Shown here: piece after piece, positions 38,981 through 47,614 of the stretch | How positions within the stretch are numbered: the first letter of the stretch is position 1 | How the letters are laid out: each line of letters starts with the position of its first letter | Assembly (NCBI RefSeq): GCF_020447105.2 | Contig: NZ_CP096184.1 | Coordinates: forward strand, 124,001-188,000 | Length of the DNA stretch: 64,000 nucleotides | Source of the DNA: Demequina sp. TMPB413 | Lineage (GTDB): Bacteria > Actinomycetota > Actinomycetes > Actinomycetales > Demequinaceae | Direction: 5' to 3' | Made by a program: the position numbers and the translations under genes | The notes under the pieces: model-generated | Told to the model about the DNA's origin: nothing | Databases searched by the model: none | Seen by the model: the letters and a program-made list of their open reading frames with translations, nothing else

Positions 38981-40279
38981 ATGACCGAAGCCGCGACTGA
39001 CTCTGCCACGCAGTCGATCATGAACTCCACACTGTCCGAGCTCGACCCCGACATCGCTCAGGTCCTCGACCGCGAGTTGGGACGCCAGCGCGACTACCTT
39101 GAGATGATCGCTTCGGAGAACTTTGTGCCGCGCGCCGTGCTGCAGGCCCAGGGCTCCGTGCTGACCAATAAGTACGCTGAGGGCTACCCTGGCAGGCGTT
39201 ACTACGGTGGCTGTGAAGAAGTCGATGTCGCTGAGAATATCGCCATTGAGCGCGCCAAGAGCCTCTTTGGGGCCGAGTACGCGAACGTGCAGCCTCACTC
39301 GGGAGCAACGGCGAACGCCGCCGTGCTTCACGCCTTGATCAACCCCGGCCAGAAGATCATGGGCCTGTCCCTCGCGCATGGCGGTCACCTGACCCACGGC
39401 ATGAAGCTCAACTTCTCCGGCAAGTTGTACGAGGTCGCGGCCTACGGGCTCGACGAGCAGTCCCACCGCATCGAGATGGAGCAGGTGCGCGAGCAGGCGC
39501 TCGCAGAGCGGCCCGACGTCATCATCGCCGGTTGGTCCGCGTACCCCCGCCACCTCGACTTTGCCGCCTTCAGGGATATTGCCGACGAGGTGGGCGCCAA
39601 GCTGTGGACGGACATGGCGCACTTCGCTGGACTGGTGGCCGCAGGCCTGCACCCCAGCCCGGTGCCTCACTCTGACGTGGTCTCCACGACCGTTCACAAG
39701 ACGCTTGGCGGTCCGCGTTCGGGACTCATCGTGTCTCGCGACACCGAACTTGCGAAGAAGCTCAACTCCGCCGTGTTCCCCGGTCAGCAGGGCGGTCCGC
39801 TGATGCACGTGATCGCGGCCAAGGCGACCGCGCTCAAGATCGCGGCCGGGGCAGAATTCAAGGAGCGTCAGGAACGTGTGCTCGAGGGTGCCCGCATCCT
39901 CGCCGAGCGTCTCACGGCGCCCGATGCCATCGAAGCCGGCATCAACGTCGTCACCGGCGGCACCGACGTCCACCTGGTGCTCGTGGACTTGCGCAATTCG
40001 CCGATCGACGGCCAGCAGGCTCAGGACCTCCTCCACGAAGTGGGCATTACCGTCAACCGCAACGCCGTGCCGTTCGACCCCCGTCCGCCGATGGTGACCT
40101 CGGGTGTGCGCATTGGCACCCCGGCGCTCGCGACGCGCGGCTTTGGCGCGACGGAGTTCACCGAGGTGGCCGACATCATCGCGACCGCGCTCAAGGGCGA
40201 CGCCGACATTCCCGCACTGCGGGCCCGTGTGGCGAAGCTCGCCGACAGCTTCCCGCTCTACCCGGGACTCGCTCAGTAA
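38981..40279 (+). CDS. glyA: serine hydroxymethyltransferase
   Basis: It makes glycine and 5,10-methylene-THF from serine and THF. The 432-residue protein has [37 protein letters not shown] with Asp211 and His213, and the PLP lysine Lys240 in [18 protein letters not shown] lies upstream of the ATG. The gene is preceded by a ZTP riboswitch and directly followed by folD, so both respond to formyl-folate shortage. Confidence 0.97.
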
Positions 40280-41155
40280 ATGGCGGGCATTCTCGACGGC
40301 AAGGCGACCGCCGCGACCATCAAGGCCGAACTGGCCGAGAGGGTCGCGGCACTCGCCGAGCGCGGCATCGTTCCCGGCCTGGGCACCCTGCTCGTGGGAA
40401 GCGACCCGGGCTCCACGTGGTACGTCAATGGCAAACACGCCGATTGTGCTCAGGTGGGCATCACCTCGATCAGGGAGGACCTCCCCGAGACGGCCACGCA
40501 GCAGGACATCGAAGCCGCAGTGCGCCGTCTCAACGACAATCCCGCGTGTACGGGGTTCATCGTCCAACTCCCGCTGCCGGCAGGCATCGACACCAACAAG
40601 GTGCTCGAACTCATCGACCCTGACAAGGACGCTGACGGCTTGCACCCCACCAACCTCGGCCGCTTGGTGCTGAGGGTCGGTGAAGACGTGACAAGCCCCC
40701 TGCCGTGTACGCCAAAGGGAATCATTGAGCTGCTCGAGCGACACGGGGTGTCGCTCGCGGGCAAGCACATCGTGGTGGTCGGCCGCGGCACCACGGTGGG
40801 CCGCAGCATCGGATTGTTGCTCACCCGCAAGGCGGTCAATGCGACGGTCACGTTGTGCCACACCGGCACCGTCGACCTCGCTTCGCACACGCGCCAGGCC
40901 GACGTGATCGTCGCCGCAGCCGGGGTGCCCGGCATCATCGGAGCCGACATGGTCAAGGAGGGCGTCGTGCTGATTGACGTCGGCGTGTCACGGGTGACCG
41001 ACGAGGCGACGGGCAAGTCCGTCGTGGCAGGCGACGTGGCTTCAGGAGCGATTGACAAGGCATCGTGGTACTCGCCAAACCCTGGAGGCGTCGGGCCGAT
41101 GACGCGGGCAATGCTGCTGGACAACGTGGTCGAATCGAGCGAGAGGACCGCGTGA
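40280..41155 (+). CDS. folD: methylene-THF dehydrogenase / methenyl-THF cyclohydrolase
   Basis: FolD converts 5,10-methylene-THF to 10-formyl-THF using NADP. The 291-residue protein has the catalytic Tyr48/Lys52 pair in [45 protein letters not shown] and the NADP-binding [16 protein letters not shown]. Its ATG abuts the glyA stop with no gap, so it depends on glyA translation and on the riboswitch upstream. Confidence 0.97.
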
Positions 41156-41250: not shown

Positions 41251-42060
41251 ATGCGCATCGTCACTGTCAACGTCAACGGGGTGAGGGCTGCCCTCCGCAA
41301 GGGTATGCAGGAGTGGCTCGACGCCGTCGAGGCCGACGTGGTCTGCCTCCAAGAGGTGAGGGCGCCTGACGAGGTGGTGGACGAAGCCTTCGCGGCTGGC
41401 TGGAACGTGGTGCACGATGCTTGCGAGATCAAGGGTCGAGCAGGCGTGGCCATTTTGTCGCGCGAGCCGCTTGGGGACGTGCAGGCCGGGGCCGCGGCAC
41501 TTGGCGAGGCTGCGGCCGTCCCTGCGCATACCGGCCGGTGGATCGAGGCGACGGTGCCCTCCGTTGCAGGACCAGTACGGGTGGTATCCGTCTACGTGCA
41601 TTCAGGCGAGGCGGGCACCCCCAAGATGGACTCCAAGTACGAGTTCTTGGATCTCATGACGGAGCGGATGGCTGCGCTCGCTTCTGCCTACGACCGAGTA
41701 GTGGTCATGGGCGACATCAACACCGCGCATACGGAGCACGACATCAAGAACTGGAAGGGCAACCTGAAGTCCGCAGGGTTCTTGCCTGAAGAGCGCGCCT
41801 ACCTTGACAGGTGGATCGCCGCCGGCTGGGTGGACGTGCACCGCACGCTCGTGGGCGAGAAAGACGGCCCCTACACGTGGTGGTCCATGCGAGGTAAGGC
41901 CTTTGACACCGACACTGGCTGGCGCATTGACTACCAGTACGCGACCCCCTCACTGGCGGCGGTCGCCGCGCACGTGCGCGTAGATCGGGCCGCCGCGTGG
42001 GATGCCCGGTGGTCCGATCACGCACCGCTCGTGGTGGACTACGCCCTCGCTGCTGGGTAG
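41251..42060 (+). CDS. xthA: exodeoxyribonuclease III / AP endonuclease
   Basis: This 269-residue member of the EEP family acts in base-excision repair at abasic sites. It has VTVNVNGVRAAL with the metal-binding Asn, LQEVRAPDE with the catalytic Glu, and VYVHSGEAGTPKM. It also has MGDINTAHTEHDIKN with the catalytic Asp-x-Asn, WWSMRG, WRIDYQY and the final SDHAPLVVDY. All the family catalytic positions are intact. Confidence 0.95.
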   Translation: MRIVTVNVNGVRAALRKGMQEWLDAVEADVVCLQEVRAPDEVVDEAFAAGWNVVHDACEIKGRAGVAILSREPLGDVQAGAAALGEAAAVPAHTGRWIEATVPSVAGPVRVVSVYVHSGEAGTPKMDSKYEFLDLMTERMAALASAYDRVVVMGDINTAHTEHDIKNWKGNLKSAGFLPEERAYLDRWIAAGWVDVHRTLVGEKDGPYTWWSMRGKAFDTDTGWRIDYQYATPSLAAVAAHVRVDRAAAWDARWSDHAPLVVDYALAAG

Positions 42061-42070
42061 TGCCGGCTGC

Positions 42071-43315
42071 CTAGAAGAAGCTGAACGCTGGGCGAGGCAG
42101 TCCCTGCCGAGCGAACGCAGCGTCGATGAACTGCGCTGCCTTGTTCGCTTGGGCTCGGCGCATCAGTGCTACGGCGGATCCGCCGCGGCCGGATCCAGTG
42201 AGTCTGGCCCCCAACGCACCCGCCTTGAAGGCCTCGTCGACCGCGAGGTTGAGTTCTTCGCAACTCACGTCGAAGTCGGTCTCTAGCGAGGCGTGTGAGC
42301 GGAACATTGCCTTGCCTACCGCGACAAAGCGCTCGTGTGCCGGCGCCGTGCCCGTCAACTCGTCCCTGACCACTTCGACGCGCTCATTCTCGGTGAAGAC
42401 GTGTCTTGCCCGACGGCGCAAGAGCTGATCCTCCAAAGCTTCGATCCGGGCCAAGGCGCGTGGCACGCTACGCAGGGCACCGATGCTCTCCACCCCGAGT
42501 GCGGCTGCGGCGCTGGCGATCTGTGCCATCCGTTCCCTCACCATCTCGTTCTGATCGGGGTGTGGCACGCCTACGTCGATGATGAGCAGGCCGAGGCCGT
42601 ACTCGGCGAACGTCAGCGGGCAGGCCGACGCGAACGGAGGTGTGGCGGCGAAGTCGAGGTAGAGGGCCTGGCCTGGGACACCGCGCATGATCGCGTGTTG
42701 AGCGAGACCCGCAGTGGCGCCTCCTGCGATCTCGTTCTCAGCGTCGATGCAGACGTCAGCCAGTTCAACGGCGTCGATGCCCGTCTTGAGGGCGAGACCC
42801 CACACCGCGTTTGCCGCCAGAGCCGTGGCGCCCGTCAACGAACTGGACGCGCTGAGGCCCGCCGAGAGAGGGACACACGAGGCGAACGCCATGTCGATCC
42901 CTGTGCTCGCGTATCCGCGCTCGAGCAGGGCCCACAGCACACCGGCAGGGTAGGCCATCCAGCGATCCTGTCCCACGAGGTTCTGGAGGGAATCAAGGTC
43001 GCCCTCCCAGACGGGGTCGTCGTCGCCGATCGCCTCTGGTCGATCGGTGCTGAACCGCACCACCCTGTCCTCACGACGCACTGCCGCGACGTACGTGCGG
43101 TGGGGGATTGCGGTCGGCAGGGAGACGCCTTGGCTGATGTCGGTGTATTCGCCGACGAGGTTGATGCGGCCGGGCGCCGACCACACGCGACTTGCCTCGG
43201 CGCCAAACACCTGGCGCAACCTTTCCCTCGCCCGTCGCTCACCCTCATCGAGCGACCACGCGTTCATCCACCGCGGTTCGGCGAGATCAGACGAAAGGCC
43301 CATGTGGCCCATCAT
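42071..43315 (-). CDS. galactokinase-like GHMP protein lacking the catalytic aspartate
   Basis: This 414-residue protein has the GHMP kinase layout. Motif 1 is APGRINLVGEYTD (canonical GRVNLIGEHTD, here with Tyr for His), motif 2 is PLSAGLSASSSL, and motif 3 is GARLTGSGRGG. The segment that normally reads GGMDQ before the GHALLLDF strand reads AGLAQ (residues 202-206). A gap-free alignment to that pattern puts Ala205 where the catalytic Asp should be. Arg50 and Glu56 are kept. No galT, galE or transporter is near. It may be a kinase with another substrate or a non-catalytic sensor. The start is uncertain (ATG 43315, 43303 or 43267). Confidence 0.8.
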   Translation of the reverse strand: MMGHMGLSSDLAEPRWMNAWSLDEGERRARERLRQVFGAEASRVWSAPGRINLVGEYTDISQGVSLPTAIPHRTYVAAVRREDRVVRFSTDRPEAIGDDDPVWEGDLDSLQNLVGQDRWMAYPAGVLWALLERGYASTGIDMAFASCVPLSAGLSASSSLTGATALAANAVWGLALKTGIDAVELADVCIDAENEIAGGATAGLAQHAIMRGVPGQALYLDFAATPPFASACPLTFAEYGLGLLIIDVGVPHPDQNEMVRERMAQIASAAAALGVESIGALRSVPRALARIEALEDQLLRRRARHVFTENERVEVVRDELTGTAPAHERFVAVGKAMFRSHASLETDFDVSCEELNLAVDEAFKAGALGARLTGSGRGGSAVALMRRAQANKAAQFIDAAFARQGLPRPAFSFF

Positions 43316-43394: not shown

Positions 43395-43964
43395 ATGGCC
43401 GCCCGTAAGACGCCCTCCTCCGCCACTCCGGAACCGGAGCCAACGCCTCAGCCAACGCCTCCTCCCGCGCCTCCAGCGCAGCATTCTGAATCGGTACTTG
43501 GGCGCCTGCGAGGCAACCGGATGGGGGCCGTGCTCGGCGGGCTTGTGGTCGCACTAGTTGTCGGCGCATTGCTGTCGGTGCTCGTGCCCGACTCGCAGTT
43601 GCTGCTGGCCCTCGCGCTCCTAGGTCTTGGAGAGGCAGCGGCGGTCGGATACACGGTGCGCTACCTCAGCACGTACAGGGGACTCGCGACGCAAGTGACC
43701 GCCTTCGTGGCGACGGTGATCGGCGTCCACGTGCTCGCCACCACCGGCATCGTCAACCAACAGATCGGCGAGATCGGCGATTTCGCAGGCGTGCTCGGCG
43801 GCGGAATGGGAGGCGGTCTTGGCTGGGACGACGCCCTCATGGGCGCCCTCGCGACTCCGGCGGCCTCGACCGGCGCCGTCGTGTGTGGGCTGATCGCGGC
43901 CATCATCGCTGGGTGGGGTCCGCGCAGTGACGTCGAGATTCACGTCACTGACGGCCCCGCATAG
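43395..43964 (+). CDS. unknown integral membrane protein with proline-rich N-terminus
   Basis: This 189-residue protein starts after CAAGGAG. The first 35 residues are rich in Pro, Glu and Thr. Four hydrophobic segments follow (about 48-66, 70-88, 96-116 and 155-175), with a Gly-rich GVLGGGMGGGLGW stretch between the third and fourth. The tail is short and polar. I recognise no family. It is divergent from the galactokinase-like gene and convergent with mrp. Confidence 0.7.
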   Translation: MAARKTPSSATPEPEPTPQPTPPPAPPAQHSESVLGRLRGNRMGAVLGGLVVALVVGALLSVLVPDSQLLLALALLGLGEAAAVGYTVRYLSTYRGLATQVTAFVATVIGVHVLATTGIVNQQIGEIGDFAGVLGGGMGGGLGWDDALMGALATPAASTGAVVCGLIAAIIAGWGPRSDVEIHVTDGPA

Positions 43965-43976
43965 GCCGCTAGTCGA

Positions 43977-45098
43977 CTAGACGGGCGAGACCCCGAGGGA
44001 GCGTCCGGCCAGTCCGCGCTGGCGTGCGCCGAGGGCGCGAGCCATGTCGCGCAGCGCCACTGCCGAGGCCGATTCTGGGTCGGCGATCACCACGGGGGTG
44101 CCTACGTCGCCGCCCTCGCGTGCGCGCACGTCGAGAGGGATCTGGCCGAGCAGCGGCACCTTCGTGCCAAGGGTCTCGCTCAGGCGGTCCGCCACACGCT
44201 GGCCGCCGCCCTCGCCGAAGAGGTGCAGGCGGCTGCCATCCGGTTGGTCGAGCCATGCCATGTTCTCAATCACGCCCACCACTGACTGGGACGTCTGGGT
44301 GGCGATCGAACCCGCCCGCTCAGCCACGCCTGCGGCAGCAACCTGAGGCGTGGTGACGACTACAAGTTCGGCGTGTGGCAGCAACTGCGCGACGGAGATC
44401 GCGATGTCGCCTGTCCCTGGCGGCAGGTCGAGGAGCAGCACATCGAGGTCGCCCCAGAACACGTCCGCCAAGAACTGCTCGAGAGCGCGGTGCAGCATCG
44501 GGCCGCGCCATACGACGGGCTGGCCCTCGGGAACGAACATCCCGATGCTCACGGCCTTCACCTCATGCGCGATCGGCGGGAGCAGCATGTCATCGAGGCG
44601 GGTTGGCTGAGCGGTGATGCCCAGCATGCCAGGGATGGAGAAGCCAAAGATGTCAGCGTCTAGCACGCCGACCTTCAGGCCATCGGCCGCCATCGCTGCG
44701 GCGAGGTTCGCGGTCACCGTCGACTTGCCCACGCCGCCCTTGCCAGAAGCGATCGCGTAGACCCTCGTCATGTTCCCTGGCTGGGTGAAGGGAATCACGG
44801 GCTCCGGCTTGCCGCCGCGCAAGGCGGACTTGAGACCTTGGCGCTGTTCATCCGTCATCACGCCCAGCTCGACGCGGACGTCGGTGACGCCGTCGACTGA
44901 CATTCCAGCGGCCGTCACGTCGCCGGTGATGCGATCCTGCATCGGACAACCAGCGATCGTCAGGTCGATGCCGATGACGGCGAGACCGTTGTCGGCGACC
45001 TCAATGCTGCGGACCATGCCGATCTCAGTGATCGGCCTCCTGATCTCTGGGTCAATGACCTTGGACAGTGCAGTGCGGAGCGCTTCAACCGTTGGCAT
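43977..45098 (-). CDS. Mrp/ApbC-type P-loop ATPase, Fe-S carrier family
   Basis: This 373-residue protein has an N-terminal MIP18/DUF59 domain (about 1-90, VIDPEIRRPITEIGMV). A ParA/MinD-like ATPase domain follows with the deviant Walker A GKGGVGKST, then DADIFGFSIPGM and LDLPPGTGD. Mrp/NBP35 proteins bind and hand over Fe-S clusters. The CXXC pair found after ENM in many of them is missing here (ENMAWLDQPDGS), as I recall for actinobacterial Mrp. Cluster binding must then use other residues or not occur. TACGAT lies exactly six bases before the ATG. Confidence 0.9.
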   Translation of the reverse strand: MPTVEALRTALSKVIDPEIRRPITEIGMVRSIEVADNGLAVIGIDLTIAGCPMQDRITGDVTAAGMSVDGVTDVRVELGVMTDEQRQGLKSALRGGKPEPVIPFTQPGNMTRVYAIASGKGGVGKSTVTANLAAAMAADGLKVGVLDADIFGFSIPGMLGITAQPTRLDDMLLPPIAHEVKAVSIGMFVPEGQPVVWRGPMLHRALEQFLADVFWGDLDVLLLDLPPGTGDIAISVAQLLPHAELVVVTTPQVAAAGVAERAGSIATQTSQSVVGVIENMAWLDQPDGSRLHLFGEGGGQRVADRLSETLGTKVPLLGQIPLDVRAREGGDVGTPVVIADPESASAVALRDMARALGARQRGLAGRSLGVSPV

Positions 45099-45795: not shown

Positions 45796-46323
45796 TTACC
45801 CGGCGCCTGCCGAGTCGTCGCGGTCCCGCTCCCTTTCGTCCTGGCGCAGCTCTTCAAGGAGCGATCTCAGTTCCGACCGCACGAAGTCGCGTGTCGCGGT
45901 CTCGTTGAGAGCCTGACGAAGCGCGGCCACCTCTCTCGCGAGATACGCCGTGTCTTCAAGGGAGCGCTCCGCGCGTTGGCGGTCCTGTTCGGCGCTCACC
46001 CTGTCGCGGTCGTCTTGGCGGTTCTGCGCGAGCAGAATCAGCGGCGCAGCGTAGGAAGCCTGGAGCGACAGCACCAACGTGAGGGCGGTGAAGTACAGCG
46101 CAGGGGAGTCGAAGCGCCACCCCCGCTCGGCCGTGAAGGGGAGCACGTTCCACGTCAACCATGCCGCCACGAAGATCGTGAGATACACGAGGAACCGCGG
46201 CGTCCCGATGAAGCGAGCGATGCCCTCTGACACGCGTCCAAAGCGGTCCGAGTTGCGCGACGACGCGGGTCGTGAGCCAAAGAGCCGACGCTCGCCCTTG
46301 GGGCGGTCAAGACGTTCAGCCAC
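45796..46323 (-). CDS. DUF1003 family membrane protein
   Basis: This 175-residue protein begins at a GTG that overlaps the stop of the MgtE-like gene by 8 bases, with AAGGGGG upstream. It has two membrane segments typical of DUF1003 (RFLVYLTIFVAAWLTWNVLPF, cited in part, and LYFTALTLVLSLQASYAAPL), followed by ILLAQNRQDDRDR. A C-terminal coiled-coil-like tail rich in Glu and Arg ends the protein. The biochemical function of the family is unknown. Co-transcription with the MgtE-N/CBS gene suggests a shared role. Confidence 0.85.
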   Translation of the reverse strand: MAERLDRPKGERRLFGSRPASSRNSDRFGRVSEGIARFIGTPRFLVYLTIFVAAWLTWNVLPFTAERGWRFDSPALYFTALTLVLSLQASYAAPLILLAQNRQDDRDRVSAEQDRQRAERSLEDTAYLAREVAALRQALNETATRDFVRSELRSLLEELRQDERERDRDDSAGAG

Positions 46324-47614
46324 GCTTGCCCCCTTGAGCCTGACGCTCCGGTGCGTGTGGGTCCCCAGCGTCGTGCTCGCGCCAGTCGCGCGGCAGCAAG
46401 TGGTCGAGCACGTCATCGATCGAGATGGCGCCCAACAGGCGGTTGTCGTCGTCAACGACCGGCAGCGCGAGGATGTCGTACGCGGCCATGCGACGAGACA
46501 CCTCCGACAAGGTGTCGGTCGGTGCGAGCGTCGAAATGGCGGGGTCCACAAAATTGCCGACGGAGTCGTGGGGGGCTTCTCGCAACAGTCGCTGAATATG
46601 GACGAGGCCCACGTAGCGCCCGGTGGGAGTCTCCAACGGGGGTCGCACGACGAACACCATCGAGGCGAGCGCAGGGGGAAGGGAATCGCGTCGCACCAAG
46701 GCAAGGCAGGTGGCCACGGTCGTCTCTGGGCCGACGATCACGGGCTCCGTGGTCATCAGACCACCGGCGCTGTCGTCCTCGTAGCCCAGCAGTTGTCGCA
46801 CCTGGTTGGCGTCGTCAGGCTCCATGAGTTCCAGCAAGGCCGCCGCGTCCTTCTCAGGAAGGTCACCCAGCAAGTCGGCCGCGTCGTCGCGCTCCATCGC
46901 CTCGAGGACGTCCGCCGCGCGTTCGGGATCGAGGGTGCGCATGAGGAAGATCTGATCGTGCTCTGGCATCTCCTCCAGCACGTCGGCAAGGCGTTCGTCG
47001 TCAAGAGCGGCCGCGATCTCGGCGGTCCGCGTGGGGCTCATCTCCATGAGCGCTGCCGCCAAGTCGGCGGGCTTGTAGTCTGCGAAGGACTGGATCACGA
47101 GTGCGGCGCCTTGGAGTTTGTCTCGCGTGGCGAGTCCCGTCACCGCATCGATGTCGACGACGCTCGACGCGCCGCGACGCGAGAAGCCAAGCACCCCTCG
47201 TCGGCGTTCTCCGTTGCGCACATACAACTTGGTGACCTGCCACAGACGCGCTCGCGTCTGCTCGATCGCGATGTCCTCGATGTAGGCGGTCGACTTGTCG
47301 CTGCGCAGCGTCACCGAGCGGTCGAACAATTCGCCGATCGCGAGAGTCTCAGAGGCGCGGGCCTGGAAGCGCCTGAGGTTGACGACGCCTGTGCAAATCA
47401 CTTGGCCAGGAACGATCGACGTGACGCGCGTCAGCGGCATGAACACACGGCGTCTGCCAGGCACTTCAACCACCAGACCCACGGCAGTGGGCGCGCCGGT
47501 ACGGCGAACCAACAACACCACGTCCCGCACCCGACCCACTGCATCGCCGATCGGGTCGAAGACCGTCGTGCCTGCGAGGCGCGCCACGTAGACGCGTTCG
47601 GTGCCGGTGCTCAT
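46316..47614 (-). CDS. MgtE N-terminal/CBS-domain protein without the transport domain
   Basis: This 432-residue soluble protein has a PRC-barrel-like N-terminal part (about 1-150, with FDPIGDAVGRVRDVV). An MgtE_N superhelical domain follows (about 180-285, repeated Leu-rich LxDVLEEMP and AADLLGDLP units), then two CBS domains (about 285-410). In true MgtE these domains sense Mg2+ and gate a membrane channel, which is absent here. Such orphan sensor proteins are common in Actinobacteria next to DUF1003 genes. A TAGGCT element lies seven bases before the ATG, with no ribosome binding site. Confidence 0.87.
   Translation of the reverse strand: MSTGTERVYVARLAGTTVFDPIGDAVGRVRDVVLLVRRTGAPTAVGLVVEVPGRRRVFMPLTRVTSIVPGQVICTGVVNLRRFQARASETLAIGELFDRSVTLRSDKSTAYIEDIAIEQTRARLWQVTKLYVRNGERRRGVLGFSRRGASSVVDIDAVTGLATRDKLQGAALVIQSFADYKPADLAAALMEMSPTRTAEIAAALDDERLADVLEEMPEHDQIFLMRTLDPERAADVLEAMERDDAADLLGDLPEKDAAALLELMEPDDANQVRQLLGYEDDSAGGLMTTEPVIVGPETTVATCLALVRRDSLPPALASMVFVVRPPLETPTGRYVGLVHIQRLLREAPHDSVGNFVDPAISTLAPTDTLSEVSRRMAAYDILALPVVDDDNRLLGAISIDDVLDHLLPRDWREHDAGDPHAPERQAQGGKRG

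Follow-up and report, generated by a model that had tools for sequence, protein, structure and literature searches.

A galactokinase-like protein of Demequina with alanine at the catalytic aspartate position, encoded at a conserved locus in genomes that carry a second galactokinase

Homoserine kinase is a member of the GHMP family that works without a catalytic Asp, and an alanine at the corresponding position, such as Ala205 of the protein described here, is therefore on its own no proof of lost activity. In the heptokinase WcbL, D163 is the proposed base and R13 the proposed stabiliser, and activity is reported to be lost on mutation of likely active-site residues (PMC4691232). The yeast protein Gal3p is a paralogue of an active galactokinase that has lost its enzymatic activity and become a regulator; with ATP and galactose bound, it associates with Gal80p (PMC7556753, PMC3409070). 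The first of these traces Gal3p to the yeast genome duplication and names Gal80p as its target (PMC7556753). Catalytically impaired paralogues of metabolic enzymes are a known kind of protein, and the present case, from a bacterial family of GHMP proteins, has a history that can be followed unusually clearly. No title announcing a bacterial pseudo-galactokinase was found among the literature matches listed, which leave most subscription papers outside and do not prove the absence of such a report.

The window analyzed here is a stretch of 64,000 nucleotides from Demequina sp. TMPB413, and the features of interest within it are collected in Table 1. The name KL is used for galactokinase-family proteins encoded at the glyA-folD-xth-KL-mrp locus, the product of the window's gene included. 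The initial annotation had recognized a real open frame at this place and left its strand unmentioned: the plus strand of the interval is interrupted by stops, and the KL frame is intact on the minus strand. All three Pfam domains, GalKase_gal_bdg, GHMP_kinases_N and GHMP_kinases_C, score above their cut-offs in the product (PF10509, 56.1 bits; PF00288, 40.8 bits; PF08544, 48.1 bits). The locus was compared in a synteny sample of 20 of the 39 KL-bearing genomes besides the window's, plus two more. The order glyA-folD-xth-KL-mrp is preserved at all 20 relatives' loci that were read, with hyp1 present at 19 of them and xth directly adjoining the KL gene at 19. Among the seven KL neighbors scanned with Pfam, neither a sugar-metabolism gene nor a regulator was recognized. 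By sequence reading hyp1 appears membrane-like, and it is also present where the KL gene is absent.

Table 1. Features of the KL locus and of the KL active site, in positions of the window
Feature	Positions	Strand	Basis
KL gene, encoding a galactokinase-family protein of 414 aa with Ala at the catalytic Asp position	42071..43315	-	frame and Pfam
Motif 1 GEYTDI, residues 55-60 (GEHTDY in most galactokinases)	43136..43153	-	translation, alignment
Phosphate-loop motif PLSAGLSASS, residues 149-158	42842..42871	-	translation, alignment
Active-site segment TAGLAQH, residues 201-207	42695..42715	-	translation, alignment
Ala205 codon GCT, at the catalytic Asp position	42701..42703 (read 42703-42701)	-	translation, phmmer, alignment
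Residues 254-257, DQNE; D254 and E257 possible replacement acids (unproven)	42545..42556	-	alignment
Val259, replacing a galactose-contacting Tyr	42539..42541	-	phmmer, alignment
Motif 3 GSGRGG, residues 374-379 (GGGFGG in galactokinases)	42179..42196	-	translation, alignment
Serine hydroxymethyltransferase (glyA), conserved neighbor marking the locus	38981..40279	+	synteny, Pfam
folD, conserved neighbor	40280..41155	+	synteny, Pfam
Exonuclease III-type gene (xth), convergent, ending 10 bases from the KL stop	41251..42060	+	synteny, Pfam
hyp1, hypothetical protein, divergent from the KL gene, no Pfam match	43395..43964	+	synteny, Pfam
Mrp/NUBPL-type ATPase (mrp), conserved neighbor	43977..45098	-	synteny, Pfam

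The segment containing Ala205 reads ENEIAGGATAGLAQH and is followed by the strand GQALYLDF, for which the initial annotation had given the general motif GHALLLDF. In phmmer alignments Ala205 lies opposite the Asp of GGLDQ in the Bifidobacterium GalK (6TEP) and of GIMDQ in human GalK, a position that we take to be human D186; the catalytic Asp of the G-x-x-D-Q pattern is thus missing from the window's KL. The claim of an Ala at the catalytic position is borne out by the GCT codon, by the phmmer alignment and by the three closest relatives of the window's KL (83, 75 and 64% identical), which all have Ala as well. Since the Ala is common to the window and these three relatives and further site changes surround it, a sequencing error or an isolated mutation was rejected. 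The nearest named record is from a Demequina MAG (83%). The readings GEYTD for motif 1 and GSGRGG for motif 3 were right, whereas the usual form of motif 3 among the comparison proteins is GGGFGG rather than the GAGFGG that had been assumed.

The changes are not confined to the catalytic position. In the same phmmer comparisons Tyr57 stands opposite a His and Val259 opposite a Tyr of the Bifidobacterium and human GalKs; both of the replaced residues are presumably galactose contacts, the Tyr being, as we take it, human Y236. Among 62 positions that are nearly invariant across the 55 other proteins of the alignment, 15 are altered in the window's KL, including H57Y, Y60I, Y259V, S156A, A158S and F377R, so that the initial impression of an otherwise well kept protein holds only in part. 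R50 of motif 1, E56, D59, S157 and E193 are retained, and the phosphate loop is of full length (GLSASSS), with no two-residue deletion. The alignment check for a substitute acid that had been proposed with that impression revealed none at residues 199-207, but D254 and E257 have been gained near the lost Tyr259 contact. These two positions are acidic in none of the 55 other proteins and in 12 and 19, respectively, of 37 full-length KLs; the four KLs with Ala at the catalytic position read D/D/D/R and E/E/A/A there. E345, E319 and E328 were likewise gained, elsewhere along the sequence. As judged from the alignment, D254 or E257 might possibly act as a replacement base.

The closest described protein in sequence is the Bifidobacterium infantis GalK (6TEP/6TEQ/6TER; E 7.9e-73), which also has the closest fold to an AlphaFold2 model of the window's KL (TM 0.89; 6teq with Z 52.2 and rmsd 1.7 over 392 residues); the matching structures contain ADP, 2-fluoro-galactose and galactose. 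The model (mean pLDDT 94.4, pTM 0.93), for which 69 of the 92 tree proteins were used as the alignment, predicts a galactokinase fold. Gal3p has this fold in common with the KL model at a greater distance (Z 35.4, 3v2u), and both proteins are paralogues of a galactokinase in their own genome. The two differ in that the KL is bacterial and no regulator was recognized among its seven Pfam-scanned neighbors. Their lesions differ as well: Gal3p lacks the Ser-Ala pair of the phosphate loop and keeps the Asp, whereas the KL has a full-length loop and has lost the Asp. WcbL and the KL are both of GHMP fold; the KL is without the Asp and keeps the motif 1 Arg (R50). The galactokinases examined from other families show an EHTDY-type motif 1, a GLSSSAA-type loop, GG[LM]DQ or GI[ML]DQ and GGGFGG, in contrast to GEYTDI, GLSASSS, AGLAQ and GSGRGG in the window's KL.

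With the TIGR00131 galactokinase model, the window's KL scores 161.7 bits, below the cut-off of 226.65, which is reached by the second galactokinase of the same genome (300.9), by two galactokinases from other families (278.4 and 271.3) and by E. coli GalK (584.6). It should be noted that this is the sole fair NCBIfam galactokinase test, as the second galactokinase also fails the four other models. Two KLs that retain the Asp also fall below the cut-off (L012, 187.0; L058 of G044, 215.7). These scores, like the counts over the 62 positions, are no measure of activity, because the near-canonical G044 protein itself lies slightly below the cut-off and the count for E. coli GalK is no higher than 53 of 62.

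Across the family, the catalytic Asp is found in all 55 non-KL proteins of the tree and at 40 further loci, that is, in 95 of 95 other homologues. Among the 37 full-length KLs, this position is occupied by Asp in 28, Ala in four, Gly in three, Val in one and Asn in one. The initial annotation had suggested searching for a clade that shares Ala or Gln there; in the tree, the four Ala proteins and two of the Gly proteins form one supported group. The remaining three Asp-less KLs are placed singly where the tree is poorly resolved. Parsimony counts four changes at the catalytic position, and the AU test does not reject a single loss (p 0.067). Within the four Ala proteins H57Y, Y60I, G202A and D205A are identical, and positions 50, 156, 158, 254, 257, 259, 375 and 377 vary, so the altered site is mostly, not wholly, conserved as far as the alignment indicates.

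Other parts of the site have also drifted. Residue 207 is His in 31 and Tyr in four of the 37 KLs, and neither residue occurs there in any of the 55 other proteins; Asn52 has become Thr in 27 of the 37; and some KLs carry altered phosphate loops (GLAGWAA, GLAQGVS, GMGGFEA). In five KLs that keep the Asp (L040, L041, L031, L032 and L034), Phe, Tyr or Trp occupies the place of Ser157 in the phosphate loop, and normal ATP binding may have been lost in these proteins instead. Finally, L058 and the group of L012, L014 and L018 keep the Asp along with a good part of the site. The counts leave out L002, L003 and L004, which are copies of L007-L009, the partial sequences L043 and L044 (both with Asp), L046 with a broken frame (Asp), the Ramlibacter sequence L006 (Asp) and L057 (G011), in which the KL is in pieces. 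The 42 proteins classed as other in the tree comprise 40 hand-picked loci, L005 and E. coli GalK, and the 40 further loci were also hand-picked.

The KL gene is present in 38 of the 44 genomes of the window's Demequina-type genus, at full length in 35 and in pieces in three, and in two of the three family genomes considered outside this genus. A second galactokinase match, whole or partial, occurs in all 44 and is assumed here to be a true GalK; it is the sole match in the six genomes without a KL (G002, G003, G005, G016, G022 and G040). These six have xth, hyp1 and mrp in the usual order, with no KL match and a gap of 69-369 bases between the xth and hyp1 matches. Since it is absent from six of the 44 genomes, the KL is dispensable. 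Two of the fragmented cases deserve a comment: in G023 the KL match lies in two pieces and frames and mrp is split too, and in G011 the splits run through several genes of the locus, a sign of assembly errors.

In the window's genome, the true GalK has intact GEHTDY, GLSSSAA, GIMDQ and GGGFGG motifs, and its gene is followed by one for a GalE-like epimerase (stretch L121, C1:362000-381000), in surroundings that are read, without a family scan, as glycogen-metabolism genes. Like Gal3p, the KL therefore shares its genome with an intact galactokinase paralogue; whether the pair arose by duplication or by gain can only be inferred. The initial annotation, which had considered either phosphorylation of another sugar or a Gal3-like sensor, took no account of this second intact GalK, of further KL lineages that have lost the Asp or of the apparently ancestral galK locus. 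No GalT domain (PF01087 and PF02744, E 0.001) was detected in the window's genome, although galK and galE are there. Within the genus, PF01087 was found in ten of the 44 genomes and PF02744 above its cut-off in the same ten; the GalT match lies no more than 0.6 kb from the true galK in nine of them and about 30 kb away in G033. No link between the KL and GalT emerged; of the eight genomes of the genus with an Asp-less KL, one, again G033, has GalT.

In a maximum-likelihood tree of 92 proteins, built with the columns around residue 205 excluded, the 37 full-length KLs form one clade (support 100/100), which is grouped with 33 GalKs from other families of the order, Actinomycetales (95/88). The true Demequina GalK is placed elsewhere, beside a few GalKs of other families. 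Some of the GalKs that group with the KLs are also encoded near xth or mrp, as the KLs are: xth and/or mrp lie near galK, sometimes adjoining it, at eight of 19 other-family loci with wide flanks and at 12 of 40 with mostly short flanks, two sets that overlap. In the window's genome, the 19-kb stretch around the true galK contains neither gene, and both are likewise missing from 13 true-GalK loci with short flanks. Given this tree position and these neighbors, the KL probably represents the galactokinase that the lineage had from the start, passed on vertically and still sited at an old xth-galK-mrp locus. The simplest reading is that the true GalK arrived second, and two ancient galactokinase copies with different losses are a possible alternative. 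The order of events is one that we infer, as both types of GalK occur in other families and 11 of the 19 widely flanked loci have neither xth nor mrp. Two genomes of the sister genus bear on the same question. G044 has the KL-locus gene only, and its protein (L058) keeps 57 of the 62 near-invariant positions, whereas G045 has both genes and a KL that keeps 44 and carries D205N. The G044 protein can serve as a natural control for displaced KL copies.

Selection on the KL gene was estimated by the Nei-Gojobori method in comparisons of the window's genome with G034, G039 and G012. The KL gives dN/dS values of 0.079, 0.127 and 0.211, and the true GalK gives 0.156, 0.158 and 0.225, the KL being lower in all three comparisons; as dS exceeds 1 for both genes the ratios are rough, yet they are far from neutrality. 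The genes for serine hydroxymethyltransferase, folD, xth, mrp and the CBS-domain protein have lower ratios than the KL in all three comparisons, and hyp1 and the APH gene have higher ratios, each in two of the three. Over all KL pairs with more than 68% identity, dN/dS ranges from 0.08 to 0.46. The initial view that an intact frame makes simple decay unlikely is supported by the values of 0.08-0.21, and on these values and the frame a pseudogene was rejected for the window's KL gene. Slow decay in the window's clade is unlikely, though the KL is dispensable in some species.

With paralogy, a fixed locus, a single KL clade, loss of the Asp and purifying selection all obtained by direct computation, we see an even chance that the KL is the displaced original galactokinase of the lineage and now a non-catalytic, ligand-binding pseudokinase. 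Under this scenario, the second galactokinase, now part of a galK-galE pair, would have taken over the sugar-kinase job, and the KL, freed of it, would have diverged in its active site while preserving the GHMP fold and a large part of the ligand pocket. In the window's lineage the base would have been lost (D to A) along with two galactose contacts (H57Y and Y259V), most of the altered site being conserved from then on. The protein would still hold a ligand without usefully phosphorylating galactose, and would work as a non-catalytic ligand-binding protein that either acts as a sensor or pairs with another protein. Slow or altered catalysis is possible, since E193, S157, E56 and D59 are kept and the acids D254 and E257 are new, and the 37 KLs need not share one function. 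A more far-reaching version seems to us unlikely: that a second GalK displaced the ancestral Demequinaceae galactokinase, which then gave rise to a family of pseudokinases that sense sugars or nucleotides and in which the Asp was lost several times independently, as the four parsimony changes would have it, and a new site was fixed by selection, in a bacterial analogue of the Gal1/Gal3 split.

The main rival to a displaced pseudokinase, which we hold to be somewhat unlikely, is that the KL is an active kinase whose substrate is some other small molecule and which relies on either a base-independent GHMP mechanism or a new residue such as His207 or D254/E257, with sugar contacts that changed along with the substrate. 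Such an enzyme would fit with purifying selection at least as strong as that on the true GalK, as well as with the retention of E193, S157, E56 and D59 and the residues peculiar to KLs, namely His207 (31 of 37 against none of 55) and the acids at positions 254 and 257 (12 and 19 of 37 against none of 55). However, one shared new chemistry would hardly leave Ala, Gly, Val or Asn at the catalytic position together with a drifting phosphate loop, D254 and E257 are not kept across all four Ala proteins, and the seven Pfam-scanned neighbors include no recognized sugar-metabolism gene.

Two further explanations take the KL to be a galactokinase, either on its way out or still at work. Relaxed selection on a redundant old galactokinase, some members of which have already gone, would account for the missing KL in six of 44 genomes with both neighbors in place, for the copy split into two frames in G023 and for the loss of several active-site residues. 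We regard it as improbable in view of the dN/dS values of 0.08-0.21 for the window and 0.08-0.46 for KL pairs above 68% identity, of the 35 full-length frames in the genus and of a site that, once altered, is mostly conserved in the Ala clade. Least likely in our estimate is a second isozyme, in which the KL would go on phosphorylating galactose, either slowly or with the help of another group. The modelled fold is that of galactose-bound GalK, the Asp and a good part of the site are preserved in L058 and the L012/L014/L018 group, and the window's protein has its new acids D254 and E257; but the window's clade has replaced the Asp, the motif 1 His and the Tyr at 259, and the window's KL stays at 161.7 bits against a TIGR00131 cut-off of 226.65 that four GalK controls reach.

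If the KL is indeed a displaced galactokinase turned pseudokinase, it would provide a bacterial example of a GHMP kinase retained after loss of its catalytic base, as well as a natural series in which a single catalytic position holds Asp, Asn, Ala, Gly or Val and the locus of a relative encodes a near-canonical protein. Such a series would suit the study of how a metabolic enzyme changes into a non-enzyme. The combination of gene order, tree and second GalK makes the proposed order of events testable. In genome annotation, naming KL-like genes as galactokinases from their domains only may mislead.

Beyond mrp, an MgtE_N/CBS-domain protein is encoded at 46316-47614 on the minus strand and is overlapped by a second minus-strand frame at 45796-46704, both of which are conserved near the locus.
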